A stretch of DNA of 64,000 bases from Candidatus Eiseniibacteriota bacterium (lineage in GTDB: Bacteria > Eisenbacteria > RBG-16-71-46 > CAIMUX01): NCBI GenBank assembly GCA_903844735.1, contig CAIMUX010000014.1, forward strand, positions 1 to 64,000, given 5' to 3'. Positions 41,101 through 62,609 of the stretch are shown piece by piece (positions within the stretch are counted from its first letter, which is position 1; the number at the start of each line of letters is the position of its first letter). The translations under genes and the position numbers were made by a program. Under the pieces are notes generated by a model. It worked only from the letters and a program-made list of their open reading frames with translations. It made no database searches and was not told the origin of the DNA.

Positions 41101-42279
41101 AAGTCGAACGCCGCCGTCTTGACCCCGACCCGGAGGTTCCTAAACGGCACGATCGCCATCCTGCAGGCCAACTCTGACATGGTGGACACCCTGGGCGCCT
41201 CCCCCGCCTCCGCCTTCTGGACGACCCGGAATGTGAGTCTGCGCTGGGGCTACCTCGGTGACCTCGCCACCAGCGGAGTCGGGGCCGATTCGACCTTGCC
41301 GGCCCTCGTGGTAAAGCCCGACGGACTGATCAACTTCGAGGACCAGATGGTCCTCACGCTCGGGTGGAACGGCGTGGGCAACGTTCAGGACCCCATCGCT
41401 GACATCGGCCCGACCGAGGGCGAGGTGCCGAATCTGCGGCCGATTCCGGACGGGAAGTGGAACGTCGACGACCTGCTTGCCTTCACGGTGATGCACTCGT
41501 GGGCCGCGAGCGAGGGCTACTACAAGGACGCCTCCGGCCTCAATCGGACCAACGAGCCGCGCCCGGTGGCGCTCGGGGCGCCGGTCCTCGGCCCGGCGGC
41601 GGTGCGCTCGGTCAGCGTTCTCGAGATGCCGAAAGCGGGCGAGTTCATGACCGTGGACCTGAACGTCGACGGCGTGCGCAACCTCAGCGGCGCCTTGATC
41701 AACGTGGGCTTCGACCCAGCCCGCCTCGAGCTGGTCTCCGTGGAAAACGGCGGCTTCCTCGATGGCAAGAGCGGCAGCCTCTTCTTCAAGAAGAGCGGCC
41801 AGGGCTGGCTTGAGGTCTCCACCACGCGTCTGGACCAGGAGCACCCGGGGGTGAGCGGCAGCGGCAGCGTTGCCCGCGCCACCTTCCGGATCCTGGACGA
41901 GAACGCGGGTGACCTCAGCGTGCAGTATGACCTGCGCTCCTCCACCGGCAAGGTTCTCGGCCGCGGCACAAGCCAGGCGGGTGCCTACACCGGCGGCGCA
42001 GTTGGCTTCCAGCTTTACGCCGCGCATCCGAACCCGACGCGGGGCAGCGCGAACATCGTCTATTCCGTGCCGACGGCCACCGCCCTGTCGCTCAACGTCT
42101 ACGATGTCACCGGCCGCCAGGTCCGCTCGCTCTTCAGCGGGCGGTGCGACGCCGGTTACCACGTGGCGCAGTTCGACGGACGCGATGACGCCGGCAACTC
42201 GCTCGCGGGTGGTATTTACTTCTATCGCTTGCAGGCGAACGGCAAGACGGCGACGCAGAAACTAACCCTCAGCCGTTAA
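38140..42279 (+). CDS. Giant secreted NHL-propeller/cohesin/dockerin-like/FlgD-like protein, copy 1
   Basis: Secreted protein of 1379 residues. The ATG at 38140 has AAAGGAGG 6 bp upstream and begins a signal peptide ('FTGILLGTLIVLALGAITVA'). An in-frame ATG at 37924 also has GGAGG but adds 72 basic residues. Order: NHL propeller blades ('VVYVLDSGHNRVQAFEVNG', 'LFVADTGNDRIKVI', 'VYVADTGNNRIQKLAF'); a first cohesin-like module (~885-1040); a dockerin-like pair from ~1060 ('PDGLINFEDQMVLTLGW', 'PDGKWNVDDLLAFTVM'); a second cohesin module (~1165-1275, 'DGVRNLSGALINVGFDPARL'); and a FlgD-like end ('HPNPTRGSANIVYSV', 'DVTGRQVRSL', 'GIYFYRL'). It is paralogous to the next gene along its whole length. 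Confidence 0.85.
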   Translation: MSRFTGILLGTLIVLALGAITVANAAVAYEAILEWNGPYFKIINNTAVDQMVNDPVTDIPFVQPTSVAAVEHVPGGALFRDVVYVLDSGHNRVQAFEVNGSYYTDTFVAADFVLAGANAAGSYGTADIWLTQYVTGLAAVGDKYQFIVPGSESVIVDGTVWRPVADLTGFVAADKVYNISYAYAGTPTGVHEGGPTIDFPAASLSAASSISLRYALTDYQGTCVPVTDDYLLGAGDVDYGVDAGAGTKVLAEIDESVATGPSTWGLVRSIAAIANEPLATSDDIFLLDATDLTEQLFSYKVTSAGVVTAVEKYDDLLTTPYDVAVANGGPTEVTADDGLTGVVVIATASVYDANQVTGHIYDVVGAAGNITITDRTTGQALVTSTLFANIPAACFAIPGLQLDKAVVGAATSVLTTVKQVPDRYLFVADTGNDRIKVIAASDDTPTATDTWLPGDVRTVEAQPAVANLVGATVGKDYAQLYTMPASVPEDYALHTLVTPLKEGTLATMTMSLPVGGPVWTRIDDLATAGPTDRVYTVDWMTGTITFGDDVHGKIPTALAVPQFTYTTSPDVVRYGSSGTGPGRFSAPRGVTARWNSSLGVYDVYVADTGNNRIQKLAFTPANAGLNLPAKMDFVCEWNGASSAADLLNNPVDIAVAKDVNGAATGKVYVAVSDQGNNRVVTYQDLAATSGGGTTAPAFDAMAGSLGNGLGLYTQIDGLCFLRNGNDLDLFTCDSQRGVVTKYEESVAPELLLNLTNLNSPANPCRPQSSSYTFNFTTTNAPVGGHIDFYYDTVGTFDPLTAKRCFAADAILSTATTAVWTLANSPDGAPVDRSIADGGYYLFARMKNSAGTVVAYDQSASGVPNELLCLDSTLLPGFRGVDRIDGDRTLYLQNGLERVVDLTLAFPQYVIGVAIGGTFPDSILQVTAINPGNGWDPTGYINPIFNQVFTTGDPDTVNPGVFLINSSITGSPLGLTGSGPFVMAEMTVKSNAAVLTPTRRFLNGTIAILQANSDMVDTLGASPASAFWTTRNVSLRWGYLGDLATSGVGADSTLPALVVKPDGLINFEDQMVLTLGWNGVGNVQDPIADIGPTEGEVPNLRPIPDGKWNVDDLLAFTVMHSWAASEGYYKDASGLNRTNEPRPVALGAPVLGPAAVRSVSVLEMPKAGEFMTVDLNVDGVRNLSGALINVGFDPARLELVSVENGGFLDGKSGSLFFKKSGQGWLEVSTTRLDQEHPGVSGSGSVARATFRILDENAGDLSVQYDLRSSTGKVLGRGTSQAGAYTGGAVGFQLYAAHPNPTRGSANIVYSVPTATALSLNVYDVTGRQVRSLFSGRCDAGYHVAQFDGRDDAGNSLAGGIYFYRLQANGKTATQKLTLSR

Positions 42280-42740
42280 CGGCGACGGTGAGGCCGGGGA
42301 TGGGTGCCGCCCGAAAGCGGCACCTTCCCGGCCCCCGGAGCCCTTCTTCACACGGGACCGCCTTCCGGGATGACCGGGGGGCGGTTTTGTTTGGGGCTTT
42401 CCGTCGGGTTGAGCGGGGCCGGTCAGGATCCATCCGGGCCGGCCGGTTCTTTTCCAATCAGCCCCTTCGGAAGGCGCCCCGACGGCGTCACGCAGCCCGG
42501 GCTTCCAGGCCTGACCTTCCGGCCATCGGAGGGTCGCAGCCGACTCCGCCGGGCAGTTCTTTCCTCGACGCGGCAAGGATTTCCGGGCGCGGCTCCTCGC
42601 TGAGTGACTTCGCACCCGGAACCTTTGACACCCCAACGCCGCCCGGGGCTCGCCGGTGGTACGCGTTTTGCACACGCACCCCTGGGCCGGTATGGCTAGC
42701 CCGCCGGAGGCGGGAGGACCGAGGACCAGGAAGGACCTTC
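42280..42740. other. Intergenic region between the two giant paralogues
   Basis: 461 bp. It starts with a GC-rich hairpin (GGTGCCGC 42303-42310 with GCGGCACC 42317-42324, extended by GCCGGG/CCCGGC flanks), then an intrinsic terminator. The remainder is an open frame in phase with the next gene but without protein character; nothing else recognised. Confidence 0.6.
42357..42390 (+). terminator. Intrinsic terminator after the first giant paralogue
   Basis: ACCGCC (42357-42362) pairs with GGCGGT (42380-42385) and is followed by TTTGT and more T/G-rich sequence. With the hairpin at 42303-42324 this likely ends or attenuates the upstream transcript. Confidence 0.6.
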
Positions 42741-45700
42741 ATGATGGCACTGAAGTGGCGACAACGGGCCATGAAACCGCGGATAGCCATGATGGTCGCG
42801 GGGGCACTTGCCCAGCTCACCACATCCGCCGGCGCCGCAACTCTCATGGACGCTATCATCGAGTGGAACGGGCCGAACTTCCGGGTCCTCCACGACCCCA
42901 CCGTCGACCAGCTCGTCGACTCGCCGCTTCCCGGCTCGGCCACGTCGTTCTCAGGGCCACAGGGGGTGGCGGTGCGCGAGCACGGCGCCGGGCGGGATGT
43001 CGTGTATGTTCTCGACACCGGCAATTCCCGCGTGCAGGCGTTCGAGGTGAACGGAACCCGGCTCACCGCACACAGCGGGTCGTTCACCTGGTGTCCCGAG
43101 GGCGTCACGCCGCTCGCCTCGGAGTTTGACGACGACCAACTCCTGCTGCCGGAGTGGAAAGGAGCAGCGGACCGCTGGATCGTCCCCTACTCGGAAACAG
43201 TGGAAGTCGACGGCGCAGCCTGGCGCCCGGTGACGGACCTGACCGGGCGCGATCCGACGGACATGGTCTACGCCGTCACCTACAACGATGTCGCGGACGC
43301 CCCGGAGATCCGCTTTCCCGCCGGATCGCTGACGTCAACGACCGCTTTCCGGCTCGAGTATCTTCTCACCGACAACCAGGGGCTGGTGCCAGACGCCTTC
43401 GGGGTCGGGGATGTCGACTACGGTATCTCCAACGACGTCACCAAGGTCTTGGTGGAGATCGATCCGACCTCGGGCGGGCCGGACTCGTGGCAGACAGTGC
43501 GCGGCATCGCCCTCGCACCGCAGGACGCGACGCCCACCTCCGATGACCTTTTCCTCCTGGATGCCGAGGACAATTCCGCGGGGCAGAACCAGGAGTTGTT
43601 CTTCTTCACGGTCTCGCAGGCGGGAGGACTCGCGTATCGCGAGGCTTATGACGACGCGCTCACCACGCCGTGGGGTCTGGCGGTGGCTCGCTCGGGCAAT
43701 TCCGCCGCGGCAACTGTCGTCCTCAGCGGCGACAACGGCCCGTTCGACTTGGCCGGCGGCACCATCCGCGATGCCGGCCAGGTGACCGGTCGCACGTACG
43801 CCGTCACAGTCTCCGGGGGGAATGTAACCGTCGCCGACCAGACCACCGGTCGCGTCCTGGTCGACACGGCTCCGTTCGGCGACCTCGCCGACCCATTCCT
43901 CGCCATTCCGGGGATCTCGCTGGTTAAGAACGGGGGGGTGGGCACCGACATCACGATCGCCACTACACGCGCAACGCCGAACCGCTTTCTCTTTGTTGCC
44001 GACACCGGCGCCAACCGGGTAAAGGTGATCTCCGCCCACGGGGCCACGCCGAACGCCACCGACGACTGGCTCCCGGGAGATGTGCATACCTCGGTCCACC
44101 AGCCGGTGGGCGCGGGGGTCGGCGCCGACGACAACGAGGACTATTACCAGTCGACCCCGGCCATGGTACCACCGAACTGGTCGGCCTGGACCACGACCTT
44201 TCCACTCGCCGAGGGCACCCTAGCCACGCTGATTCTGGATCCGGACGGAACACCACAGGTGTGGAGCCGAACGGACGATCTTTCCACGGCCGTGCCGGGA
44301 GACAAGTTCTATGAGGTCGACTGGCAAATGGGGCGGATTCTTTTCGGGGACGGCACGCGCGGCGACATACCGCCGGCGAGCACCGAGATCTCCTTCACGT
44401 ATACGACCACCCCGGATGTCATCCGCTACGGATCCACCGGGGCCGGGGTCGGGCAATTCTCATCTCCCAAGGGGATTGCAGCCCGCTGGAACGCGGCGCT
44501 CGGACAGTACGATGTCTATGTCGCCGACACCGGCAACGACCGGGTGCAGAAGTTCGCCTTTCTCCCGACCAACGAGGCCCTCAATCTGCCCGCGCGGCTC
44601 GACTACATCTGCTCGTGGACAGCCGTCGCGGCCGGGGGCCGCGCCCTGCTGGCCCCGTTGGCGGTCGCGGTGGCGGCCGACGGGCAGAGCCCATCGAGCG
44701 TATGGGTGGGGGTGGCCGACACGGGGCACGATCGGATCGTCCTCTACGAGGATACCGCGGCCATGGCTGCAGGCGGCACCGCGGCACCCGCGTACCTGGA
44801 CAGTCTCGGGGCCTCGGGCGTGGAGCTGGGATTCTTCGGTGAGTTGAACGGCCTTGGCTTTCTCTCCCACGGGGACGGCCTGGATCTCTACGCCGCCGAT
44901 CGCACGCGAGGCGTCCTCATGAAATTCGAGCAGCCCGCGGTTCCGTCGATCGCCCTGGATCTCTCCGGCGAAAGCCTGCTGCCGGAGTGGTTCCCGCCCA
45001 GCAGTGCGTACACCTTCCGCTTCACCACCGCGAATCCCCCCCTCGGCGGGCACATCGATCTCTACTATAGCACCACCGCGATCTTCGACCCCGGCACGGC
45101 CAAGCTGTGCGTCCCGGCCAACACGGTCGCCGCCACCGCCTCCTCGACCACATGGTGGTTCGCCTCCTCTCCGGCGGGCGCAGCCGTCCCGGGAAGCTAC
45201 TACCTCTTCGCCTGGATGAAGGACGCGGCGGGGACGGTCGTGGCCACGGCGCAGACCACGGGGCCGCAGCTTCTCAGCCTCGATGCTGTGATCGTGCCGC
45301 GACTGCAGGGAGCTGACGCCATCGATGGCGATCGCACACTCTATCTGCAAAACGGAGTCGACCGCGTGGTGGATCTGCAGATCGCCTACCCCGAAAGCGT
45401 GATGGCTGCGGGGTTCGGCGGCGTCTTCGACACCTCGCTGGTGCAGATCACCGGAATCACGCAGGGCAACGGCTGGGACAACACCGGTGCAATCAACCAG
45501 ATCTTCACGTCATCGTGGAACGACACCGCAGGCACGTTCCGAGTGACCACCGCCATCACCGGATCGCCGTGGGGACTGAACGGAAACGGCCCGTTTACCC
45601 TCGCGCGCGTGGCCGTGCGCGCGAAGCCGCACGCCCTGAAGACCGCCTTGAGGACGACCCCGGTCGGTGATCGCTGGCGCAACGGTACGCTCAATATCGC

Positions 45701-46835
45701 CGCGGCGACCTCCGGGATCAGCATGCGAAGCGGCTCAAGCCCGGCAAGCTGGACCACCCGATCGACGAGCCTGCGATTCGGCTGGCTCGGCGACATCGCG
45801 ACAACGGCCAGCGGCGCCGACTCGATCACGCCGCACCTGATGCCGAAGCCGGACGGGAAGATCGATTTCGCCGACCAGATGGCGTTCACCGTGGGCTGGA
45901 ACGGCGCGCAATTCGTGCAGGATCCGATCGCCGACTTGGGTCCGGTCGAGGGCACGGCACCGGATCTTCTCTCCAATCCCGACGGTCGGTGGGACATCGA
46001 GGACATCCTCGCCTTCACCTCCATGTACTCGTGGGCGTCGTCGCTTGCGTTCTCCAAGGAGTTGGCACTCGGCGACGATGGCGACCGGGGCGACGATGGC
46101 GGCGGGACCGGCATGGCCGACACGGCCGCAAAGACCGGCACGACCGGCAACGCCTGGGCGCGCACACTCAGCCATGCCGGCGACCCGCGCGCCGGCGGTG
46201 AACTCACTGTCGACTTCCTGGTGGAAAACGCCGTCGATCTCACCGGAGCCAACTTCGCCCTCACCTACGATCCAGACCAGTTGGAGCCGATGTCGCTGGA
46301 GAGCGCGGGCTTCCTCGAGGGCGCCGACGGGAGCCTCTTCCTGCGCCACGAGTCGCCGGGCTACCTCGAGGCTGCCGTCTCGCGGCTGGACCGGAGAGAT
46401 CCCGGCGTGGACGGGAGCGGAACGGCCGTGCGCGCCACCTTCCGCATCCGGCATCCCGAGGGCGCGCCGCTCTCGCTGTCATACGATCTTCGCTCTTCGC
46501 GGGGCAACGTGATCGGCCGGGGAATCTGGGGCGCAGGCGCGTTCACGGGCGAGGCGGCCCCCTTCACGCTCTTCCCCGCGTGGCCAAACCCAACACGTCA
46601 GTCGACGCGGATTCTCTTTTCCCTGGACGGGGATCGCGCGGTCTCCCTGCAGATCTTCGATGTAACCGGACGCCGGGTGCGTTCCCTCGTGGAAGAGATG
46701 CTGCCACCCGGCTACCACGCGGTGCCATTCGATATGCGCGATGACACGGGAGCGCGATTGCCTTCGGGCGTGTACCTCTGCCGACTGGGCAGCAACGGGC
46801 GGACGGCCACGGGCCGCGTCGTCCTCACGCGCTGA
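42741..46835 (+). CDS. Giant secreted NHL-propeller/cohesin/dockerin-like/FlgD-like protein, copy 2
   Basis: Paralogue of the preceding gene, 1364 residues, same domain order. The ATG at 42741 has AGGAAGG upstream, with a second ATG at 42744; the N terminus is a signal peptide ('KPRIAMMVAGALAQLTTSAG', then 'AATL'). Propeller blades: 'VVYVLDTGNSRVQAFEVNG', 'LFVADTGANRVKVI', 'VYVADTGNDRVQKFAF'. Dockerin-like pair from ~1036 ('PDGKIDFADQMAFTVGW', 'PDGRWDIEDILAFTSM'). A Gly/Asp-rich linker ('GDDGDRGDDGGGTGMA') is specific to this copy. Cohesin (~1138-1260) and FlgD-like end ('WPNPTRQSTRILFSL', 'DVTGRRVRSL') follow. Extensive divergence from copy 1 indicates an old duplication. Confidence 0.85.
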   Translation: MMALKWRQRAMKPRIAMMVAGALAQLTTSAGAATLMDAIIEWNGPNFRVLHDPTVDQLVDSPLPGSATSFSGPQGVAVREHGAGRDVVYVLDTGNSRVQAFEVNGTRLTAHSGSFTWCPEGVTPLASEFDDDQLLLPEWKGAADRWIVPYSETVEVDGAAWRPVTDLTGRDPTDMVYAVTYNDVADAPEIRFPAGSLTSTTAFRLEYLLTDNQGLVPDAFGVGDVDYGISNDVTKVLVEIDPTSGGPDSWQTVRGIALAPQDATPTSDDLFLLDAEDNSAGQNQELFFFTVSQAGGLAYREAYDDALTTPWGLAVARSGNSAAATVVLSGDNGPFDLAGGTIRDAGQVTGRTYAVTVSGGNVTVADQTTGRVLVDTAPFGDLADPFLAIPGISLVKNGGVGTDITIATTRATPNRFLFVADTGANRVKVISAHGATPNATDDWLPGDVHTSVHQPVGAGVGADDNEDYYQSTPAMVPPNWSAWTTTFPLAEGTLATLILDPDGTPQVWSRTDDLSTAVPGDKFYEVDWQMGRILFGDGTRGDIPPASTEISFTYTTTPDVIRYGSTGAGVGQFSSPKGIAARWNAALGQYDVYVADTGNDRVQKFAFLPTNEALNLPARLDYICSWTAVAAGGRALLAPLAVAVAADGQSPSSVWVGVADTGHDRIVLYEDTAAMAAGGTAAPAYLDSLGASGVELGFFGELNGLGFLSHGDGLDLYAADRTRGVLMKFEQPAVPSIALDLSGESLLPEWFPPSSAYTFRFTTANPPLGGHIDLYYSTTAIFDPGTAKLCVPANTVAATASSTTWWFASSPAGAAVPGSYYLFAWMKDAAGTVVATAQTTGPQLLSLDAVIVPRLQGADAIDGDRTLYLQNGVDRVVDLQIAYPESVMAAGFGGVFDTSLVQITGITQGNGWDNTGAINQIFTSSWNDTAGTFRVTTAITGSPWGLNGNGPFTLARVAVRAKPHALKTALRTTPVGDRWRNGTLNIAAATSGISMRSGSSPASWTTRSTSLRFGWLGDIATTASGADSITPHLMPKPDGKIDFADQMAFTVGWNGAQFVQDPIADLGPVEGTAPDLLSNPDGRWDIEDILAFTSMYSWASSLAFSKELALGDDGDRGDDGGGTGMADTAAKTGTTGNAWARTLSHAGDPRAGGELTVDFLVENAVDLTGANFALTYDPDQLEPMSLESAGFLEGADGSLFLRHESPGYLEAAVSRLDRRDPGVDGSGTAVRATFRIRHPEGAPLSLSYDLRSSRGNVIGRGIWGAGAFTGEAAPFTLFPAWPNPTRQSTRILFSLDGDRAVSLQIFDVTGRRVRSLVEEMLPPGYHAVPFDMRDDTGARLPSGVYLCRLGSNGRTATGRVVLTR

Positions 46836-49273: not shown

Positions 49274-51361
49274 ATGTCGGAATCGGCCGCAGTCAGCCAC
49301 CCGGGTAACCCTCGTCGCCGCCGTACGCGTGGCGTGCGCGTAGGGACACTCACCATCGGCGCCGGACACGCAGTCGTCATCCAGTCGATGACCGTCTCCG
49401 ACACTTTGAACACTGAGGCCGTGGTGGCCGAGGTGACATCCCTGGTCGCCACGGGATGCCCCCTGGTGCGCCTCACAGCTCCCTCCCTCCGTGACGCCGA
49501 GAACCTGCGCGAAATCCGCCGACGGCTCGACGCCGAGGGGATCCGCGTGCCGTTGGTCGCCGACATCCACTTCACCCCCAACGCCGCCGTCGCCGCGGCG
49601 GCAATCGTGGAAAAGGTCCGTATCAACCCGGGAAACTACGCTGATCGGAAGCGGTTCGCAGCGCGCGAGTACACCGACGTGGAGTACGTTGCGGAGGTAG
49701 CCCGCGTGGCCGAAACGCTGCGTCCCCTCGTGGAAACCCTGAAGCTGCATCGCGCCGTGTTACGCATCGGCACCAACCATGGATCGCTCTCCGATCGTGT
49801 GATGAACCGCTTCGGCGACACCCCGGCGGGGATGGTCGAGTCGGCGCTGGAGTTCGTGCGGGCCTGCGAGTCGATGGAGTTCCGTGAGATCGTGCTCTCG
49901 ATGAAATCCTCCGTGCCCGGTGTGATGATCGCCGCCTACCGTCTGCTCGCAGCGCGGATGGATGAGGCCGGGATGGACTACCCGATCCACCTCGGTGTCA
50001 CCGAGGCGGGTGACGGGCTGGACGCGCGGGTCAAGAGCGCGATCGGCATCGGCTCTCTACTCGTCGACGGGATCGGCGACACCATCCGGGTCTCGCTGGC
50101 GGAGGACTCGGTGCACGAGATTCCGGCCGCGAGGGCGATCCTCGCGGCGGTAGAGGAAGAGACCGGGGCGGGAGTGGGGGCCGGCCACGACAACCTCGAA
50201 GGCCCCGAGGACAGCGCCGGTTCGGCCTGGTGGAAGTCCCGCACCGACCCGCAGCCGCGACGCCCCAGCCAACCATGGGTTCTGGGCGGACTCGGCATCG
50301 GAGGAGCGTTCCCGGTGCGCGTCGAGGCCCGGGTGGTGCTGCCGGTGGGCATGCCCGTCACCTCGTCGCCCGCGACGCTGCTCGTCGAAACCCAGGGGGA
50401 AGCGCCCGAGTTCGTCTCGGTGCAACCGGCCGGCGACGCAGAGACTCGCCCCTCCGTCATCATCGAGGCGCTCGACGCGTTCCGCCTCACCTTCGGTCCA
50501 ACGGGGCCCGCGCTGCCGCTTCTGTTGGAGTGGACTTTCTGCGGCCAGGGCGAGGTGCATCTGCTGGAAGGCGCTCTTCCTTTCGTCGACGGGCTCAGCC
50601 TCACCATCACCCGGCCGTCCGGGCAGCGGGACGAGGACCGCTTTCGCCTGCTGGCGCGGTTACTGCTGCGCGCCCGCAAGCCGGTCCGCTTCCGTCTACC
50701 CGCGTCCGCGGCGGCACCCGGCGCGATCGCAGCTCAGGTGGCGTCGCTGTGCCGCGGAGAAGGGCTCGACACCGTAGGATTCCTCTGCGCCCCCGGCCCG
50801 CATTGGATCGAGCGCACGCGTGATCTGACCCTCGGGCTCACCGAGACGATGGACCCGATCTTTCTTGAAGTACCGCCCGCCGGACCGCTCGCCGCGCTCC
50901 GGGCGGGCTCGATGCTGCTCGACGGGATCGGCGACGCGCTGTGCCTCGATCCTTCGATCCCGGCAACCCCTTGGCCCGCGGGTGGCCGCACCTGGAGCGA
51001 GGATCCGGTGCGCTCTGCGTGGACCATCCTGCAGGCCTGCCGCTTGCGGCTCACGCGCGCCGAGTTTATTGCCTGCCCCTCGTGCGGACGCACACAGTTC
51101 GATCTGCAAAGCGTGACGGCGAAGATCCGCGCACGCACCGAGCACCTCCGGGGCGTCAAGATCGCCGTCATGGGATGCATCGTGAACGGCCCGGGCGAGA
51201 TGGCCGACGCTGACTTCGGCTATGTCGGCTCGGGCCCAGGCAAGGTCGACCTGTATGTCGGGCGAGACCGCGTGCGACAGGGCGTGGCGGAGGCCGAGGC
51301 CACCGAACGGCTCGTCGAGCTCATCGGCGAACATGGGCGATGGGTCGAGCCGGGGGGCTGA
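49274..51361 (+). CDS. ispG: 4-hydroxy-3-methylbut-2-en-1-yl diphosphate synthase, three-domain type
   Basis: Penultimate enzyme of the MEP isoprenoid pathway, reducing MEcPP to HMBPP with a [4Fe-4S] cluster. The N-terminal TIM barrel is clear ('VVIQSMTVSDTLNTEAVVAE', 'PLVADIHFTPNAAV', 'VRINPGNYAD', 'EIVLSMKSS', 'YPIHLGVTEAG', 'LLVDGIGDTIRVSL'). A central insert of ~250 residues (about 300-560) follows, as in plant, Chlamydia and Bacteroidetes enzymes (~600-740 aa), here 695 aa. C-terminal cluster Cys lie in 'CPSCGRTQFDL' (~600) and 'GCIVNGPGE' (~634). GGGAG precedes the ATG. The last 133 bp are duplicated downstream at 52587. Confidence 0.95.
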   Translation: MSESAAVSHPGNPRRRRTRGVRVGTLTIGAGHAVVIQSMTVSDTLNTEAVVAEVTSLVATGCPLVRLTAPSLRDAENLREIRRRLDAEGIRVPLVADIHFTPNAAVAAAAIVEKVRINPGNYADRKRFAAREYTDVEYVAEVARVAETLRPLVETLKLHRAVLRIGTNHGSLSDRVMNRFGDTPAGMVESALEFVRACESMEFREIVLSMKSSVPGVMIAAYRLLAARMDEAGMDYPIHLGVTEAGDGLDARVKSAIGIGSLLVDGIGDTIRVSLAEDSVHEIPAARAILAAVEEETGAGVGAGHDNLEGPEDSAGSAWWKSRTDPQPRRPSQPWVLGGLGIGGAFPVRVEARVVLPVGMPVTSSPATLLVETQGEAPEFVSVQPAGDAETRPSVIIEALDAFRLTFGPTGPALPLLLEWTFCGQGEVHLLEGALPFVDGLSLTITRPSGQRDEDRFRLLARLLLRARKPVRFRLPASAAAPGAIAAQVASLCRGEGLDTVGFLCAPGPHWIERTRDLTLGLTETMDPIFLEVPPAGPLAALRAGSMLLDGIGDALCLDPSIPATPWPAGGRTWSEDPVRSAWTILQACRLRLTRAEFIACPSCGRTQFDLQSVTAKIRARTEHLRGVKIAVMGCIVNGPGEMADADFGYVGSGPGKVDLYVGRDRVRQGVAEAEATERLVELIGEHGRWVEPGG
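51222..51354 (+). repeat. Parent copy of a 133-bp segmental duplication
   Basis: The 3' end of ispG (51222-51354) is nearly identical to 52587-52719, same orientation, 1365 bp apart, with about ten substitutions. The copy starts inside the codon series for 'YVGSGPGKVDL'. Confidence 0.9.
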
Positions 51362-51653
51362 CCGGCGACCAACGGTGTAGTCTCCATCCCCGTGGTTCCG
51401 AAGATCGTCCCGAGCCGGCCCAGCCCCGAGCTCCGGAATTTCCCGCTCCCCCCAAAAAGCCCAAAGTCCGAAGCCTCCAAATATGGGGTCGAAACTTGCC
51501 GCTTGACACGATCAGGGCCCACCTCAATCATTCGCCCGGTGCCGAATGGGAACCATCCGGTGCCATTTCGGCAGCTTGCGGGGTCTGGAAGGATTCCAGG
51601 CCCGTGCGTCATCGTCATCGATGGCCAGGGAGTTACTTGAAGGAGGTTCACGT

Positions 51654-52586: not shown

Positions 52587-52740
52587 ATGTCGGCTCGGGC
52601 CCGGGCAAGGTCGACCTGTGTGTCGGGCGAGACCGCGTGCGACAGGGCGTGACGGAGGGCGAGGCCACCGAACGGCTCGTCGAACTCATCCGCGAACATG
52701 GGCGATGGGTCGAGCCGGGCGTCGAATCGTCGCCCCATGT
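52587..52740 (+). pseudogene. Duplicated 3' fragment of ispG
   Basis: In the ispG frame this reads 'VGSGPGKVDLCVGRDRVRQG' and 'RLVELIREHGRWVEPG', then runs past the original stop into unrelated residues. It lacks start, barrel and cluster cysteines, so it is a non-functional fragment. Near-identity to 51222-51354 points to recent duplication. The rest of the 52338-52793 interval holds only the terminator at 52398. Confidence 0.88.
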
Positions 52741-54351: not shown

Positions 54352-54462
54352 CTAGGACATCAATCCGCCACCGCCATCGTCGTCGGGGCCTAGGCCAGCG
54401 AGCGTTTCCTCGATCGGTGTGACCTTCAATTCCGGGCGTTCCCAGTCCATACGATCGTTCAT
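54352..54462 (-). CDS. Lasso-type RiPP precursor peptide
   Basis: 36-residue peptide, last gene of the RiPP operon, 70 bp after the C gene. GGAGG stands 4 bp before the ATG at 54462. The leader carries 'WERPELKVTPIEETL', close to the lasso leader pattern Y-x2-P-x-L followed by a penultimate Thr (Thr20 at -2). Cleavage after Leu21 gives the core AGLGPDDDGGGGLMS: N-terminal Ala, Asp at core 6, 7 and 8 (ring acceptors for 7- or 8-residue rings), and C-terminal Ser. That Ser could be the target of the neighbouring kinase, as in paeninodin, whose core also starts Ala-Gly. The Gly-rich tail with only Leu and Met as bulky plugs is unusual. Confidence 0.7.
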   Translation of the reverse strand: MNDRMDWERPELKVTPIEETLAGLGPDDDGGGGLMS

Positions 54463-54532
54463 GATTCCTCCGAGGTGGCTTGACTGCACATGACAAGTCC
54501 TGACCCGTACTACGATCGGCCGATTCCGGAAG

Positions 54533-56509
54533 TCATGCAACATCTTTTTTTTCGGCTTTCACCTCCGGATCCGGCCCGCCCAAAGAGCCATGCCATCCGA
54601 GCAGGAAGCGCCCGACGCCCAGCCCCCTGGTGAGAACAGTGACGCCCTGAGCCGTGCCGTCGGAATCTACCCGGATCTGCAGTGCGTGGAGAATTTGGCG
54701 CATGCGCGGCAGGTCGAGGCGTTCCCTGCAGGCGGCCGATTGGTCCATGGAATCAAGCCACCCATGGCAAGACTCAGCCTGAGCTCTGAGGCGATGGCCC
54801 AGATCCGCGGCCTGGAGGCCTCGTCGGTGGTTCCACTGGACCTCGGAGGGCAGCAAGCCTTCCATGGCCCGGCGATTCAGCCAGCGATCCTGCCCCCGAC
54901 GGGTGAACTGGTCATCCGGGGTTCCGAGGCAGAACTCCAAGAGTCGCGAATCCGCCGTGGGATCTCGAACCTCCAGCCCATAGGCGGCCCCGGTCTCATG
55001 CCAGATGGCACCAACGATGCCACCGCCCTGTTCAAGAAACGCAATGCGTTTGGCTAGCGAGGGCAGGCCGCCAAAGCGAGGATCGTGCCCCGCGGCCCTC
55101 ATGAGCTTCCCCAAACCCAAGCGCCGCGCGAAGGCGGGATGAATGGCGGAGTAGGGTTCCCAGACCGGCCTGAACGGGTGGCGAAGAAGACGCCGCCGAA
55201 CCCACAAAGGCCGAAGAAGCGGGCGCAGGATCTGGCTCTTGAAAGCGGCCGTCCAGGATCGCTGCCGTGCTTGCTTCCAGGCAGCAAGTTCTCGGGCGGC
55301 ACCCGTGAGGTTCCCCGACCAGAACTCATCCCAGACCCGAGTTGCGCTGCCGGTCCAAGACACCGCCAAGTTGCCCATCTGACCTGTGAGCAGAACCCCC
55401 AGGCGGTGATCCCGGGCTGACTCCAGCAAGGCCGAGATCCAAAAGAAATTGCCGGCGGCATGCCCAGGCTCGTCGGCCATCCACAATTGCCGAGCAATGC
55501 CGTCCAGGGGGGTGGAATGAGCCGCCGAGACGGCTAGATGGGTAATGGAGGGCCACCGCGCGGCCACGGCCTGGGCCAGCGGCCATTCGTCCCCAAGACG
55601 ATTGGGTCCTGCCCCGTCGGGTGGGTACAGAGGCACCGAGGTGAAAGCGATCAAGGGGGCGCCCTGCGCCTGGAGCTCGCGGGCGCTAAGAACCGTGACG
55701 GAGCCGCTGTCCAGACCGGCGCTAAGCGTGCTGCCGACGGGTCGGACGGCGCGAAGTCGGGACCGGACCGCACGGGTGTAGAGCTCAAGAAAGGCCTCTA
55801 CATACGCATCGTCTGAACCCAAACGGATGTCCGGTGCGTTCTCCAAGCTCCAGTACTTCTCGACGCGGATCCTTCCATCCTCCCACCGGAGAAGGTGCGC
55901 CCAAGGAAGGCGGCGGATGGCCCGATATGCGGTGGCAATACCGTCTCCGGGCCACGAGGTTAGGATCTGGGCCAGCCGCAGCTCGTCCAGATCCCGGGGC
56001 AGATCCGGGAGGGCAAGCAGGGCCTTCTGGCAGCTCGCGAAGGCGAATCGGCCGGGGGTGGAGGCGTAATACAGGGCCGTCTGGCCACAGGGGTCCCGGG
56101 CCAAAACGAGACGCTGATTCCGTGGATCCCAGAGGGCGAAAGACCAATCCCCACGGAGGCGGGGAAGAGCACGCTCGTCCCAGCGAAGCCAGGCCTTCAG
56201 GAGCAAGGTGGTATCCGGAGTCGACGCACGCTCTGCCTGGAGCAGATCGAGGGCATCGCAGAGCTCATCGCGATCATCCAGGCGGGCACTGGCTGTGAAG
56301 ACCAACCCGGAGCCGGGATCCTGAATGGGCAGATGCTCGTCCACAGCCTCCGGAGTGGCAAGCAACTTGAGGTGCCCGAGGCCTGCGGTACCTTGGGCCC
56401 ATCCTCCGCGGCCATCGGGGCCCCAGTAGGCCATGGCCTGCTCCATGGCCTCCAGATCCGTCCCCACAGGGACGCCGTGCAGGCCGATGGTTCCGAAGAT
56501 CCCGCTCAA
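54533..56509 (-). CDS. Lasso peptide cyclase-type asparagine synthetase homologue (C protein)
   Basis: 658 residues with asparagine synthetase B architecture: N-terminal amidotransferase-like domain and C-terminal ATP-pyrophosphatase. In lasso systems this enzyme adenylates the ring Asp/Glu and closes the macrolactam. The TTG start at 56509 overlaps the B2 stop (TTGA) and has GGAGG just upstream; the protein begins 'MSGIFGTIGLHG'. Position 2 is Ser, not the catalytic Cys of glutamine-dependent synthetases, as expected when no ammonia is needed. 'RDPCGQTALYYA' and the ATP loop 'LSAGLDSGSV' (~262) are present. It precedes the precursor gene. Confidence 0.88.
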   Translation of the reverse strand: MSGIFGTIGLHGVPVGTDLEAMEQAMAYWGPDGRGGWAQGTAGLGHLKLLATPEAVDEHLPIQDPGSGLVFTASARLDDRDELCDALDLLQAERASTPDTTLLLKAWLRWDERALPRLRGDWSFALWDPRNQRLVLARDPCGQTALYYASTPGRFAFASCQKALLALPDLPRDLDELRLAQILTSWPGDGIATAYRAIRRLPWAHLLRWEDGRIRVEKYWSLENAPDIRLGSDDAYVEAFLELYTRAVRSRLRAVRPVGSTLSAGLDSGSVTVLSARELQAQGAPLIAFTSVPLYPPDGAGPNRLGDEWPLAQAVAARWPSITHLAVSAAHSTPLDGIARQLWMADEPGHAAGNFFWISALLESARDHRLGVLLTGQMGNLAVSWTGSATRVWDEFWSGNLTGAARELAAWKQARQRSWTAAFKSQILRPLLRPLWVRRRLLRHPFRPVWEPYSAIHPAFARRLGLGKLMRAAGHDPRFGGLPSLAKRIAFLEQGGGIVGAIWHETGAAYGLEVRDPTADSRLLEFCLGTPDDQFTRRGQDRWLNRRAMEGLLPSEVQWNHRRGLQAADLGHRLRAQAESCHGWLDSMDQSAACRERLDLPRMRQILHALQIRVDSDGTAQGVTVLTRGLGVGRFLLGWHGSLGGPDPEVKAEKKDVA

Positions 56510-56994
56510 ACCGCCTCCTCCGATTTCCGCGCATGGTCCGCGAAACAAGCGACCGCTGTGAACCCCGCCTGTTCCTTTCCGCCCGTGACCATCAGGGGGC
56601 CACTCCGAAGCCAGGCGTGGGCGTTGAGTGCCCTGGGGTCGGAGGAATCCGGGGTCACCCCGAGATAGAGGGTGCCCGAGATACCCCGGCGATGCAGCAT
56701 CGCGTGGCCCGCCAACGCTCGGACGAGGCATGTGCTCTGCCATGGCGTACGCCGGGCGGCAGCGCCCAGCGCCCAGGTGATCTGCCGGACTTGATCATGA
56801 AGGGCAGGAATCAACGATCCGGGGCTCTCCTCCTTGGGTACACCCAGGAACCGACTGATCCGGCGAAAGCACACCAGGAGGATCGCCGCGCGGGCGATGC
56901 CGAGATACAGATACGCCTCCGCGAATCGGCACCAGTCTCCCGGAGGGTGTGCGAGCATCCGCTGGAAACGCCGTCCCTTCACCGATGGGATCAC
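56506..56994 (-). CDS. Lasso leader peptidase, B2 protein (transglutaminase-like)
   Basis: 162 residues of the PF13471-type transglutaminase-like family, which removes the lasso leader. Catalytic Cys89 lies in 'PWQSTCLVRALAGHAMLHRR' and His126 in 'ALNAHAWLRSG'; 'GTLYLGVTP' is the typical strand between. The GTG at 56994 overlaps the B1 stop (GTGA); GTG at 56982 with GGAG upstream is an alternative. It overlaps the C gene by 4 bp. Requires the B1 protein for leader recognition. Confidence 0.87.
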   Translation of the reverse strand: MIPSVKGRRFQRMLAHPPGDWCRFAEAYLYLGIARAAILLVCFRRISRFLGVPKEESPGSLIPALHDQVRQITWALGAAARRTPWQSTCLVRALAGHAMLHRRGISGTLYLGVTPDSSDPRALNAHAWLRSGPLMVTGGKEQAGFTAVACFADHARKSEEAV

Positions 56995-57284
56995 TCCACC
57001 CGCACGATCAACCGCTCCTGCCAAAGCTGCTGGAGAAACGGAATGGTGTCCTCCTTGCAGGTCGCCTCGTCCACCTTGTACTCCTGTTGCAGCCGGGCAC
57101 ACAGGCTCCCGAAGTCGATGGGTTGAGCCAACAGTTCCCAGATCCGGCTACCGACACGACCGAACCCGTAGTAACAGTTGGTCTCCAGACTGATGACCAC
57201 GGTTTCGTCCTGCACTTGCGTCGCGAAATGCGTGTCCTGTCGTACCCATCGAATGTCAGGGCTCATGAGAAACGGAGCATCCAC
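56991..57284 (-). CDS. PqqD-like RiPP recognition element, B1 protein
   Basis: 97 residues with the PqqD/RRE fold that binds the leader peptide: 'TVVISLETNCYYGFGRVGSR', 'IWELLAQPIDFGSLCARLQQ', then a helix 'DTIPFLQQLWQERLIV'. The GTG at 57284 has GAGGT 5 bp upstream; ATG 57266 is the alternative. It lies 12 bp after the kinase and overlaps B2 by 4 bp. Its separation from B2 is the split-B arrangement of most non-proteobacterial lasso clusters. Confidence 0.87.
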   Translation of the reverse strand: MDAPFLMSPDIRWVRQDTHFATQVQDETVVISLETNCYYGFGRVGSRIWELLAQPIDFGSLCARLQQEYKVDEATCKEDTIPFLQQLWQERLIVRVE

Positions 57285-57296
57285 GATGACCTCGTT

Positions 57297-58241
57297 TCAT
57301 GCGGGTGTGGTTGGCAGGGCTTCGAGTCTGAGGATGAGGTCCGCCAGCGGGCGGAGGCTGGAAAGGTCCTCCGGCCGCTGGATTCGAAAGAGACGGGCGG
57401 AGCGGGCGACTGCCGCGACCTGCCGGAAATGACTCTCCAGCCGACCCATGGGCCGAAGATAGATGGGTCGATAGGTGTTTGCAGCGATCGCCACTACTTT
57501 CCGCATTCCCGAAAACTCCTCATAGCAAGGCTGATCCACATCCGCGGATTCTAACAGGAAAATCGTTTTCAAGGGGGCAGCTTCCCGAGGGAAGGAAGCA
57601 TGGACATCCATGGCGTACTTCTCGATGGCCTTTCGAGCAGGCCTCAGCGTTTCCGCAGAGGCCCCGACCTCGTCGAGCACGTCAGGGCAAAGATGAAGCC
57701 GGGGATAGGCGGGGTGGAGGAGCGGGGGCGAGTCGGGCGACAGTGAGACGGCGCATACATCATCCGAAAGGACAGGCAGGCCACGGGCGTGGAGGACAGC
57801 AGCCAGGGTGGATTTCCCGATACCGGACGCGCCAGCAAGCACGAAAGCGCCTTGGACTCCCAGGAGAGCGCTCCCGTGAAGGGGAAGCCGGCCGCGTTGA
57901 TGAAGCAACGCCCCGAACGCGGAACCAAAGAGATAGATCCTCCATCGACCGGAGTCAGCTTCCGGGGTGGCATCCACCGTGATCTTTCGCCCATCTTCGA
58001 CGAGGAAAGAAACCCCATCGGGAGTTCGCATGAGGAAACGACTCCCGTCGACTTCAAAGAACCGGCAATCTCCGCCGAGCTGGAAAAGATGCCGCGGAAC
58101 CTCACCTCGGCGAAGCAACACATCCCCGTCTCCCGAACCGACGACCAATTCGGGGCAGTCCACCTCCGAAGCGATTTGGAGTCCGAAGGCGGAGTAGTGG
58201 AATATCCGGTGACTTGAGGTGGGGTTCAACACGAGAGACAT
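57297..58241 (-). CDS. HPr-kinase-like RiPP tailoring kinase
   Basis: 314 residues. The P-loop is 'LAGASGIGKSTLAAVL' (137-145), preceded by the HPr-kinase-type 'LHGSALL' and followed by the acidic 'LSDDVCAV' (160-161). Homologues in lasso clusters (PadeK, ThcoK) phosphorylate the C-terminal Ser of the precursor; the precursor here ends in Ser. The N-terminal ~100 residues ('RIFHYSAFGLQIASEVDCPE') are typical of this subfamily. ATG 58241 is used, though no strong ribosome site precedes it, and the frame is open to 58424. It heads the K-B1-B2-C-A operon. Confidence 0.83.
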   Translation of the reverse strand: MSLVLNPTSSHRIFHYSAFGLQIASEVDCPELVVGSGDGDVLLRRGEVPRHLFQLGGDCRFFEVDGSRFLMRTPDGVSFLVEDGRKITVDATPEADSGRWRIYLFGSAFGALLHQRGRLPLHGSALLGVQGAFVLAGASGIGKSTLAAVLHARGLPVLSDDVCAVSLSPDSPPLLHPAYPRLHLCPDVLDEVGASAETLRPARKAIEKYAMDVHASFPREAAPLKTIFLLESADVDQPCYEEFSGMRKVVAIAANTYRPIYLRPMGRLESHFRQVAAVARSARLFRIQRPEDLSSLRPLADLILRLEALPTTPA

Positions 58242-58578: not shown

Positions 58579-60333
58579 TCACGCCGCGTACTGATCCGTC
58601 TCGTCCTCCTCCCCGCCCGCGATTTGCTGCATGCGGATCGCCACCTTGAGGACCACACCTTCGGCAAGATCATCCGGGGTCAGCTCCAGAGGCACGATGA
58701 TCTCCCGTGGGCGGCGGCGGCGCGGCGGCGGCTGGGTCGCGCACGCCGGCGGCGGCGCGAACGAAACCAACGACGGTGTCGGCCGGGGAACGGGCGGGAG
58801 TGGCGACCCGTCCGTCCACGAGCCAGCCTCCGGCGGCGGCGTCGACGGGCTTGTCACCTCCGCGATCGTGATCTGAGAGATCGCGGACGGCTGTGCGGCG
58901 AGGGAGGGAACCAGGACTTCCGGCGCCGTGGACACAGCAACCACCGGGTCTACGACCGCCGGTTCCATGATCGTCAGCTCCGCGACCGCCGGTTCCACGA
59001 TCGCCAGCTCCGCGACCGTCGGTTCCGCGACCGCCAGCTCCGGGACCGTCGGTTCTTCCGCACCCACGAACTCACCGCGCGGTGAAAACGGGCTCAGGTC
59101 CGGTTGAGGCAACGGCGTGGGCATCGACGGCATCTCGGCCAAGACAGTCGGGGCCGGTGGGGGCTCGGCCATCTCCGGCCCACGGGCACGCAGCTCGGCG
59201 GCGGCAGCGTCATCCGGCTCCGGCGACCTCGACAGCCAGCGTCGCAGCCGCTCGCCCACGGAAACATGGTGATCGGACTGCTGGTCGTCATCACCCCGAG
59301 AGGCCCAAACCGACGTGTCATCCGACCCGGGCCGGCGCATCCGCACCGGCTCGGCCACCGGGGGAAACTGCGCACGGGGATCGGCAATCGCCGTCTCGCG
59401 GGCGGGCGGGAATGAACGGTCCTCACTCACAACGAGCGGCTCTGCCTCGAATCGGACAGCCTGAGGAACGACGTCCGCCTCCGCCGTCCAAGCCGAGTCC
59501 GCGGCATACACGGTGACGGGGGCGTCAGGAACCACCGGGGCCGGGGATGCCCATGCCGGGGCGGCAGAATCCTCCGCGAACACGGTGACCGGAGTCTCCT
59601 GCACTGCCGGTGCCGGTGAAGCCGCGCCCCAATCTACAGGAGCTGCAGGAACGACGGCGATCGGCGGGGCGATCGGGTTCGCGGCGACGGCGGCAGGCGC
59701 CGGGAGACTCGCCTCGGCTTCCACCGTCGATGCCACCACCGGCACGCCGACGTCCTTGGCCAGTTTCCGCAGCAGGAGGCGCGAGACCCCCTTGAAGGTC
59801 TCGACGACGCCCACGCCGGTACTCGCCACCCCTTCGTAGGCCGGAACGCGGCCCGGGTTGAGCACCGCCTCCAGCTCCTCCAGCGAGTAGATTTCGGTCA
59901 GATCCCGCTTGTTGTACTGGATCACCCAGGGGAGCCTATCGAGGGTGAGCCCGAGGTCCTTCAGGTTTTCCCTCAGGTTTTCCAGGCTCTCCACGTTCTC
60001 GTCCATCTTGCCGCGCTTGGAGTCGGCCACGAAGACGACCGCGTCGACCCCCTTCAGCACCAGCTTCCGAGTGGCGTTGTAGTAGACCTGCCCGGGCACG
60101 GTGTAGAGCAGAAATCTGGTCTTGAAGCCCGACAGCTCGCCTAAGTGGACGGGCAGGAAATCGAAGAAGAGCGTTCGCTCCGTCTTCGTCTTCATGGAGA
60201 CCATCTTTCCTCGTTGTCCCTGAGGGATCGAGCTGTAGATGAACTCCAGGTTGGTGGTCTTGCCGCTCAAGCCCGGCCCGTAGTAGACGAGCTTGGCGTT
60301 GATTTCCCGGCCCGAGTAACTCACCAAAACCAT
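58579..60333 (-). CDS. MglA-like small GTPase with long disordered tail
   Basis: 584 residues. The first ~195 form an MglA-type GTPase: 'LVYYGPGLSGKTTNLEFIYS' (P-loop 19-27), 'FKTRFLLYTVPGQVYYNATR' (switch II), and 'VIQYNKRDL' (NKxD). GGAGG precedes the ATG at 60333. The remaining ~390 residues are Pro/Ala/Val/Glu-rich and disordered, with 10-residue repeats ('EPAVAELTIM', 'EPTVAELAIV'). They end in a structured-looking piece ('PREIIVPLELTPDDLAEGVV', 'LKVAIRMQQIAGGEEDE'). MglA sets polarity for motility or protein localisation. No MglB/roadblock gene is visible nearby. Confidence 0.87.
   Translation of the reverse strand: MVLVSYSGREINAKLVYYGPGLSGKTTNLEFIYSSIPQGQRGKMVSMKTKTERTLFFDFLPVHLGELSGFKTRFLLYTVPGQVYYNATRKLVLKGVDAVVFVADSKRGKMDENVESLENLRENLKDLGLTLDRLPWVIQYNKRDLTEIYSLEELEAVLNPGRVPAYEGVASTGVGVVETFKGVSRLLLRKLAKDVGVPVVASTVEAEASLPAPAAVAANPIAPPIAVVPAAPVDWGAASPAPAVQETPVTVFAEDSAAPAWASPAPVVPDAPVTVYAADSAWTAEADVVPQAVRFEAEPLVVSEDRSFPPARETAIADPRAQFPPVAEPVRMRRPGSDDTSVWASRGDDDQQSDHHVSVGERLRRWLSRSPEPDDAAAAELRARGPEMAEPPPAPTVLAEMPSMPTPLPQPDLSPFSPRGEFVGAEEPTVPELAVAEPTVAELAIVEPAVAELTIMEPAVVDPVVAVSTAPEVLVPSLAAQPSAISQITIAEVTSPSTPPPEAGSWTDGSPLPPVPRPTPSLVSFAPPPACATQPPPRRRRPREIIVPLELTPDDLAEGVVLKVAIRMQQIAGGEEDETDQYAA
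58951..59056. repeat. 30-bp in-frame tandem repeat in the MglA-like tail
   Basis: Units 58951-58980, 58981-59010 and 59011-59040, plus a partial fourth, share the core GACCGCCGGTTCCACGATCG with a few changes each. Thirty bp equals ten codons and produces the 'EPAVAELxIx' series. Confidence 0.85.
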
Positions 60334-60491
60334 GCTGCCTCCGGGGCGCCCGCTTTCGGGGCCCGCGTTCCGGTCGCGTCGCCGCACGCCTGCCGCGGAA
60401 CGCGGCAGGGCAGGGGGACACACATCCTTGGTGAAGATATCGACCGTCGACGCGCGGGTCTTGACTGTGGTGTTGCTGGAATCCGGTCCGC

Positions 60492-62609
60492 TCAGCCGAC
60501 TTCGTAGAGACGCATGCGCGCCCCGTAGAGGTACTGCACCAGCGCGCGGAGCTCGGCGTGCTCGGGAGCGGTTAAGTCGGGGTCTTCGGCGAGGATCCGC
60601 TCGGCCTCGGCGCGGGCGCGAACCGGCAAGTCCCTGTCGCGAACCAGATCAGCGACTCGGAAGCGGGGCAGGCCGCTTTGGGCTGTCCCGAGGAACTCCC
60701 CCGGGCCCCGCAGGCGGAGGTCTTCCTCGGCCACTTGGAAACCGTCGGCGTGACGCACTAAGACCTGCAGCCGCGCGTGCGCCGGTCCCTTCGCCGACGC
60801 CATGAGGAAAAGGTGCGACGCACCTCCCCCGCGGCCGATACGCCCGCGGAGCTGGTGGAGCTGGGACAGCCCGAAGCGATCGGGATGCTCGATGACCATG
60901 ATGGTGGCCCGGGGGATATCGACGCCGACCTCGACCACGGTAGTCGTGACGAGGCAGGGAACCTTCCCATCGCGGAAACGCTGCACCACGAGGTCTTTCT
61001 CCGGTCCTTTCATCCGGCCGTGCAGGAGGCCGATCTCGATCCCGGCGAAGGACGGATGTTGCTTGAGTTCCTCGACCGCACTCGTGGCGTCGCGCAGGTC
61101 GACCAGCTCCGACTCTTCCACGAGAGGGTGGACGAAAAACGCTCTTTCTCCCTCGCGAAGTCGGTCGGCGATCCAGCGCAGCATCGGCGCTCGCCTGCGG
61201 TCGTCGACAAGCCGGGTGATCGGCGACACCCGTCCGGCAGGCATCTCGCGCAGAAGCGAGACGTCTAAGTCACCGTAGAGCGTGAGCGAGAGCGTGCGCG
61301 GGATCGGCGTGGCGCTCATGACGAGACAGTGCGGGCTGACCTCACCGGCGGCAGCGGCGCGTTCGCCCACGACGGCGCCGTGTTCACCCTTGTCGCGAAG
61401 CCGTTGCCGCTGGAGCACGCCGAAACGGTGTTGCTCGTCCACCACCACGAAACCGAGCCGGGAGAACTCCACCCCAACGCCCAGGATGGCATGCGTGCCG
61501 ACGAGCACGGCAATCTCCCCCGCCGCCAAGGCAGCGTGGAGGCGCCGCCGCTCCGCCGCCGGGGTACGCCCCAGCAGAAGTGCGCTCTTCACGCCGAGCG
61601 GACCGAACCACTGCTCGAAGAGCTGAGCCTGTTGGGCTGCCAGAATCTCGGTGGGGGCCAGGTAAGCGGATTGCACCCCAACCTCCGCGGCCGCGAGAAT
61701 CGCCAGTGCTGCCACGACCGTCTTACCCGAGCCGACATCGCCCTGCAACAGGCGATTCATCGGTCCCGGTCGGGCCATGTCGGCCAGAATCTCGCTAAGG
61801 ACATGCTCCTGTCCATCGGTGAGGGCGAACGGCAGTGCGGTCCGAAGCTGTTGCTGGAGCAGGCCGGCTGGGCACAGCGGAATCGCTGCCTCCGCCCGGT
61901 CGCGGCGCCGCCGCGCGAGCCCGAAGGCGAGCTGCAACGCGGCGAACTCGTCGAAGGCGAGCCGGTCGCGCGCCTTGTCCGCGTCTTCCGGGGCAACCGG
62001 AAAGTGGACCCGTTCGAGGGCCCAGGACAGGTCGGGCAGGCAGAGTCGTTCACGCAACGCCGGGGGAAGAGGATCGCGGAGATGAACCGCCGCCTCATCG
62101 AGGGCCGCACGCACCAGCACGCGGAGCATCCGCTGCGTCAGACCCGCCGTGAGCGGGTAGACCGGCACAATCCGCCCGCCCGAGAGCGCGTCGTCGGTGC
62201 CTCCATCGGCCAGGATCTCATACTCGGGATGCGTGAACTGACGCGCGTCTTGATCGACCCTGACCTGTCCGCTCAAGAGCAGGAATTGCCCGGGGCGGAT
62301 CCTGTCGGCGAGAAACGGTTGATTGAACCAGGCGGCTGAGGCATGCCCGCCGTCACCCTCCAAGTCCGCCTCGAAGATGGTCATCCCGCCGCGCGCGCGG
62401 CGGAGTCGGGCTGAGCGCACCATGGCAACGGCGGTCTGCTGGGCACCGGGAACGAGCTGCGGCAGGGGCGTCAAACGGCTGCGGTCGAGCCATGCCCTGG
62501 GAAGATGCCAGAGCAGGTCCCGGACGGTCTGGACTTCCAACCGCTTCAGGAGAGACGCTTTGCGCGGTCCGACTCCCTTTAGGTATTGGACCTGCGTGTT
62601 GGGATCCAT
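60492..62609 (-). CDS. recG: ATP-dependent DNA helicase RecG
   Basis: 705-residue branch-migration helicase that rescues stalled forks. N-terminal wedge/OB region ('YLKGVGPRKASLLKRLEVQT', 'LLLSGQVRVDQDARQFTHPE'), then 'LLQGDVGSGKTVVAALAIL' (motif I), 'VVVDEQHRFGV' (motif II, DEQH as expected), 'VMSATPIPRTLSLTLYGD', 'TTTVVEVGVDIPRATIMVIE' and 'QLRGRIGRGG'. C-terminal 'DLRLRGPGEFLGTAQSG' is the RecG signature. It is divergent from rpmB and followed 158 bp later by the MglA-like gene. Confidence 0.96.
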   Translation of the reverse strand: MDPNTQVQYLKGVGPRKASLLKRLEVQTVRDLLWHLPRAWLDRSRLTPLPQLVPGAQQTAVAMVRSARLRRARGGMTIFEADLEGDGGHASAAWFNQPFLADRIRPGQFLLLSGQVRVDQDARQFTHPEYEILADGGTDDALSGGRIVPVYPLTAGLTQRMLRVLVRAALDEAAVHLRDPLPPALRERLCLPDLSWALERVHFPVAPEDADKARDRLAFDEFAALQLAFGLARRRRDRAEAAIPLCPAGLLQQQLRTALPFALTDGQEHVLSEILADMARPGPMNRLLQGDVGSGKTVVAALAILAAAEVGVQSAYLAPTEILAAQQAQLFEQWFGPLGVKSALLLGRTPAAERRRLHAALAAGEIAVLVGTHAILGVGVEFSRLGFVVVDEQHRFGVLQRQRLRDKGEHGAVVGERAAAAGEVSPHCLVMSATPIPRTLSLTLYGDLDVSLLREMPAGRVSPITRLVDDRRRAPMLRWIADRLREGERAFFVHPLVEESELVDLRDATSAVEELKQHPSFAGIEIGLLHGRMKGPEKDLVVQRFRDGKVPCLVTTTVVEVGVDIPRATIMVIEHPDRFGLSQLHQLRGRIGRGGGASHLFLMASAKGPAHARLQVLVRHADGFQVAEEDLRLRGPGEFLGTAQSGLPRFRVADLVRDRDLPVRARAEAERILAEDPDLTAPEHAELRALVQYLYGARMRLYEVG

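Follow-up and report, generated by a model that had tools for sequence, protein, structure and literature searches.

In lasso-peptide clusters that carry a tailoring kinase, PadeK phosphorylates the C-terminal serine on the linear precursor (PMC9266682), and the B1 protein accelerates the kinase K and also serves the peptidase B2 (PMC10368454). The characterised lasso kinases have an H-G-G-G-K-S-D-D motif (PMC10368454, PMC9266682), and a leader consensus [Y/W]xxPx[L..] has been described (PMC13381572). Here we analyzed a 64,000-nucleotide stretch (positions 1 to 64,000 of contig CAIMUX010000014.1, referred to as the window) from a Candidatus Eiseniibacteriota bacterium, in which five consecutive minus-strand genes, K-B1-B2-C-A (54352-58241), encode a candidate system of this kind. 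We consider it quite probable that they make up a complete, kinase-tailored lasso-peptide cluster, probably horizontally acquired. As judged from the sequence, the cluster belongs to an already known class, the kinase-tailored (paeninodin-type) lasso clusters; distinctive of it are a short core, a permuted gene order and the lack of an exporter alongside.

Results

A preliminary description of this DNA, made from the letters alone, had proposed a five-gene lasso-type cluster with a tailoring kinase, and the family searches, the K motif and the precursor bear this out. The gene content, the motifs and the leader architecture can be read directly in the window, and all five open reading frames (ORFs) are open. 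It had also been proposed that the core genes are coupled by 4-bp overlaps. This holds for two of the four junctions, B1/B2 (56991-56994) and B2/C (56506-56509), but not for K/B1 or C/A, which are separated by gaps of 12 nt and 70 nt, respectively. No promoter consensus was found at the cluster, and terminator-like sites occurred at chance level.

B1 (56991-57284, GTG start), a 97-amino-acid PqqD-like recognition element (RRE) of ribosomally synthesized and post-translationally modified peptides (RiPPs), matched the Pfam PqqD family (PF05402) with 60.5 bits, above the cut-off, and NF033536 with 74.6 bits, slightly below the cut-off of 80. It also resembled the solved lasso RREs 9x90 (9e-12) and TbiB1 5v1u (4e-9). 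B2 (56506-56994, GTG start), a transglutaminase-like lasso leader peptidase, scored 91 bits against the lasso B2 family NF033537 (cut-off 33) and 82 bits against PF13471, for which it was the sole match in the host genome; its residues C89, H126 and W128 are invariant across 8 lasso B2 proteins. For C (54533-56509, TTG start), an asparagine-synthetase-like lasso cyclase, the top NCBIfam family was the lasso cyclase NF033535 with 345 bits, followed by TIGR01536 with 165. The PP-loop S263-x-G265-x-D267-S268 of C is invariant, and the nucleophile Cys2 is replaced by Ser, the glutaminase Cys being also gone in other aligned lasso cyclases. The profile check against PF13471, PqqD/RRE and asparagine-synthetase-like families thus confirmed B2 and B1 and gave lasso cyclase as the best family of C, below the curated cut-off.

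The kinase gene K (57297-58241) encodes a 314-amino-acid peptide kinase, identified from its ORF, its motif and its predicted HprK/PEPCK (phosphoenolpyruvate carboxykinase) fold. The lasso kinase motif is intact (H122-G137-G140-G142-K143-S144-D160-D161), and the protein is 27-38% identical to the Bacillota K proteins and the nearest alphaproteobacterial K-cluster kinases. In profile searches the HPr-kinase models matched K weakly. An AlphaFold2 (AF2) model of K built from 24 sequences reached a pLDDT of 90, compared with 60 for an earlier model from 4 sequences, and its top Foldseek matches were PEPCK (E = 6e-9), which are fold relatives of HprK. The earlier assignment of K as HPr-kinase-like agrees with this modelled fold and with the retained His-Lys-Asp-Asp motif.

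The precursor gene A (54352-54462, ATG start) encodes the 36-residue peptide MNDRMDWERPELKVTPIEETL / AGLGPDDDGGGGLMS and is preceded by a Shine-Dalgarno sequence, GGAGG (54467-54471), 4 bases upstream of the ATG. When the 1330 stop-to-stop peptides of the window were ranked with a hidden Markov model (HMM) of 14 other precursors, window excluded, A came first (E = 0.0022). The motif [WY]..P.x-x7-T, when followed by a short tail with Ser at its end, has a single occurrence in the window, whereas a Markov null predicts 0.23; that site sits 70 nt behind C. The leader contains W(-15)ERPEL with Thr(-2) and Leu(-1), a spacing identical to that of 43 K-cluster precursors. From the W..P.L-x7-T spacing of the leader, and with AGxG homology to the cores of 41 relatives, the core peptide was assigned as AGLGPDDDGGGGLMS (15 codons, 54355-54399, with the stop codon at 54352-54354). 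A 63-amino-acid reading of A (54352-54543) was rejected, as it overlaps C and the Shine-Dalgarno sequence fits the inner ATG.

The 15-residue core has Asp at positions 6, 7 and 8 and Gly at 9, and ends in GLMS; A1-G2-x-G4 and the final Ser are common to it and many relatives' cores. Asp7 and Asp8 lie within the 7-9 acid range of lasso precursors, and the predicted ring is A1-D8 (or D7). The tail consists of four glycines (Gly4) followed by Leu-Met-Ser, without an aromatic or large residue. The predicted monoisotopic mass is 1299.540 for the cyclised core and 1379.506 for the phosphorylated form.

As a yardstick, 151 Paenibacillaceae genomes were searched with the window B2; 80 matched at E < 1e-12, and 40 loci were retrieved, with no selection for a C-terminal Ser. 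K was present in all 40 loci and the exporter gene D in 39, the usual order being C-A-K-B1-B2-(N)-D. The precursor was found in 37 of the 40, directly after C, as in L115, whose core is paeninodin-like (AGPGTSTPDAF). The 41 distinct cores are 21-41 residues long (median 23), position 9 is acidic in 40 of them, and all 41 end in Ser, which is consistent with the earlier proposal that K together with a C-terminal Ser fits the phosphorylated lasso class. By analogy, Ser15 is the likely phosphosite of K.

The preliminary description had contrasted a precursor placed last here with one placed first in paeninodin, a contrast that does not stand: the C-A pair is conserved both in these relatives and in the window. 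That a last precursor is unusual was likewise discarded, A right after C being the rule in the sampled loci. As C and A stay together, A is not displaced in the window: its order, K-B1-B2-C-A, is that of Bacillota, C-A-K-B1-B2-(N)-D, circularly permuted. In seven Paenibacillaceae loci (L095-L099, L117 and L124), two C-A-K sets flank a single B1-B2 pair (C-A-K-B1-B2-N-C-A-K-D), so that two lasso products apparently use one RRE and one peptidase.

The absence of an ABC (ATP-binding cassette) transporter on either side, noted earlier, extends to the whole 97-kb contig, on which no PadeD-like ABC exporter was found. The host genome has 14 ABC matches; none of them lies on this contig, their identities do not exceed about 40%, and they look like general ABC pumps. 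Since a K cluster without D has already been published from Microvenator marinus (PMC10368454), the absence of the exporter is by itself not new.

The phosphosite, ring size, threading and fate of the product are predicted from homologues, and the order of steps is modelled on PadeK, SyanK and BsfK (PMC9266682, PMC8498205, PMC10368454). B1 would dock the W..P.L leader of A, and K, aided by B1, would phosphorylate Ser15 of the linear precursor. B2 would then cut after Thr(-2)-Leu(-1), and C would adenylate Asp8 (or Asp7) and close the ring on the Ala1 amine. The product would be a 15-residue macrolactam with a phosphoserine end, presumably threaded. Any export may rely on a general ABC pump with its genes at another locus; alternatively, the product may act intracellularly.

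To place the cluster in its host, we compared its surroundings with those in related genomes. On one side lie mglA-like, recG, rpmB, ftsZ, ftsA, ftsQ and murC genes, and on the other outer-membrane beta-barrel genes and ispG, as identified by reading and Pfam. The MglA-like GTPase (58579-60336, minus strand) and recG (60492-62609, minus strand) form the right flank and are outside the cluster. In two genomes of the same order (G001 and G003), recG-mglA is followed by a tetratricopeptide repeat (TPR) gene, trpA and uppP, and the cluster occupies that position in the window; trpA had no match in the host genome, where an assembly gap is possible. The reading that the contig is mis-binned was rejected, since genomes of the same family and of the same order share its recG-mglA synteny.

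The G+C content at third codon positions (GC3) is 0.65-0.75 in the cluster versus 0.80-0.83 in its neighbours, and a search of 46 other genomes from the host phylum gave no B2 homologue. In the trees, K joined Thalassobaculum (support 90/84) and C joined Azospirillum/Tistrella (80/89), both outside the Bacillota clade, with moderate supports and long branches. In a larger quick tree the placement of C agreed (89) and K stayed among proteobacterial rows (80). B2 gave no resolved placement. The tree placement, the missing B2 in the 46 genomes, the synteny break and the low GC3 together favour horizontal acquisition of the cluster.

The preliminary description had taken the host for a lineage of the Fibrobacteres-Chlorobi-Bacteroidetes (FCB) type, which is consistent with two FCB-like traits nearby, FlgD-type C-terminal domains and a 695-amino-acid IspG. 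FlgD-like sorting-type C-terminal domains are found in two adjacent paralogous large surface proteins (1451 and 1515 amino acids; 37924-46835). Near the left border of the lasso cluster, two copies of the ispG 3' end (51222-51370 and 52587-52735, 149 nt, 91% identical) lie on either side of an outer-membrane beta-barrel gene, possibly a trace of rearrangement. Within the MglA-like protein gene, 15-bp repeats (58937-59056) lie in the part encoding a long Val/Pro/Ala-rich tail.

Wider searches were also made. Viral contigs scanned for B2 and K contained no relatives of either. A scan of genome contigs with the K alignment and a single P-loop pattern returned at least three loci, a figure that under-samples the spread across phyla, and in an actinobacterial order the matches of the K-profile search were dominated by ABC ATPases.

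Discussion

Several observations weigh against a complete, kinase-tailored lasso-peptide cluster. C and B1 score under the NCBI curated cut-offs (345 vs 525 and 74.6 vs 80, respectively); the core falls below the length range of the 41 relatives, with its ring acid away from position 9; and the cluster has no D gene, as in only 1 of the 40 sampled relatives. A locked threaded form is doubtful, given the Gly4 run and the lack of an aromatic or large tail residue. In addition, the Thalassobaculum precursor (L010, 9989-10216), which ends in WSAPRLSLLPIENTLGPSTFSSGQAAHVS, has no Asp or Glu in its core with a cyclase gene adjacent.

The locus may instead make a phosphorylated macrolactam without a stable threaded lasso, that is, a branched-cyclic phosphopeptide whose Gly4 tail is flexible; it may stay in the cell and be held by the phosphoserine alone. 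We regard this as a serious competing explanation, though the less likely one; it differs from the kinase-tailored lasso in threading only, and our confidences in the two overlap. A bulky plug is missing from the core AGLGPDDDGGGGLMS, which has 15 residues against 21-41 in the relatives, no exporter was found nearby, and an Azospirillum K-cluster precursor likewise reads D-GGGG-L...S, all of which would suit a branched-cyclic product. On the other hand, the B1-B2-C set is complete, small-ring lassos exist, such as the Gly1-Asp7 huascopeptin as cited in PMC13352647, and the sequence cannot predict stability here. A tentative and still less probable extension is that the cluster represents a distinct kinase-tailored RiPP sub-branch, shared with some Alphaproteobacteria, whose short Asp-Gly4 cores become phosphoserine-ended macrolactams that stay intracellular or unlocked, which would explain the missing exporter.

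It is improbable that the locus is a horizontally acquired cluster in decay, one that has lost its exporter and no longer makes a product. D is missing here although 39 of the 40 sampled relatives have it, the synteny is broken, the GC3 is lowered (0.65-0.75 vs 0.80-0.83) and the cluster occurs once in the sampled phylum, but all five ORFs are open with intact catalytic motifs, the 4-bp overlaps persist at two junctions, and A still has a good Shine-Dalgarno sequence in front of it. A pathway like that of the linear polyphosphorylated peptides (LPP), in which K and the RRE act and the ring is never formed, is very improbable and was rejected because C and B2 are present: although K, the RRE and the leader motif are common to LPP and paeninodin clusters (PMC13381572) and some K-cluster precursors have no acid at 7-9 (L010, L018), LPP use an SpI-type peptidase and no cyclase, whereas here B2 and C have conserved motifs and positions 7 and 8 of the core are both Asp.

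The complete, kinase-tailored lasso cluster, our preferred reading, would add a sparsely sampled lineage, whose other sampled genomes have no B2, to those with phosphorylated lasso-type RiPPs. The earlier expectation of an uncharacterised product is supported. The cluster is a minimal cassette of five genes, and none of the 41 sampled Paenibacillaceae K-cluster cores is as short as its own. With its predicted ring of 8 or 7 residues and its Gly4 tail, this 15-residue core tests the minimum sequence needed by a lasso cyclase, and also whether a C-terminal phosphate can act as a plug.

Two actinobacterial K-clusters (L019, 6258-6470, and L028, 742-960) have precursors ending in IDIGIGIHIPFPALGS and GIDIGIGIGIGS, respectively, with repeat-like cores and no acid at 7-9. 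A plasmid of the archaeon Halopiger xanaduensis (L017, 4743-12483) bears B1-B2-C and a broken or split HprK-like gene close to one nucleotidyltransferase and one ABC gene; it is an archaeal kinase-type lasso cluster.

Among known systems, the paeninodin/pseudomycoidin-type clusters of Paenibacillaceae and Bacillaceae (PadeK, ThcoK, PsmK) have the same five proteins, leader spacing, AGxG core start, C-terminal Ser and position of A right after C as the window. However, the order in the window is permuted, with neither D nor N, and its 15-residue core has the acid at 8 or 7, while theirs is at 9. Compared with the paeninodin family sensu stricto of Bacillota, the window core has Gly at 9, and K and C fall outside the Bacillota clade with moderate support. 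The bsf-type clusters of Bradymonadales also have K, split B1/B2 and C, and the Microvenator marinus member also has no D (PMC10368454); they differ in having Ile(-2) and in the phosphorylation of Ser3 by BsfK, whereas the window has Thr(-2) and a C-terminal Ser. LPP (PMC13381572) resemble the window in the HprK-like kinase, the discrete RRE and the [Y/W]xxPx[L] leader, but have an SpI peptidase and no cyclase where the window has B2 and C.

The alphaproteobacterial K-clusters include those of Thalassobaculum (L010), Azospirillum (L011, L048) and Tistrella (L014, L046), as well as SyanK of Sphingobium from the literature. Their precursor list had been restricted to Ser or GG endings, and for this reason the frequency of Ser in it was not used as evidence; the annotated precursor of L048 ends in Ser-Gly. 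The acid-less core of L010, together with a Halalkalibacter precursor (L018, 6817-6918) that has no acid at 7-9, suggests that K-type machinery may serve products beyond classical lassos. The alphaproteobacterial loci have scattered genes and extra oxygenase, sulfotransferase or glycosyl genes, while the window has the five genes only. The Thalassobaculum K is nevertheless the nearest to the window K (36-38% identity), Azospirillum/Tistrella form the nearest C group, and the alphaproteobacterial cores are short, as in the window, the Azospirillum oryzae K-cluster precursor (L011, 8941-9117) having the same D-GGGG-L...S pattern as the window core.

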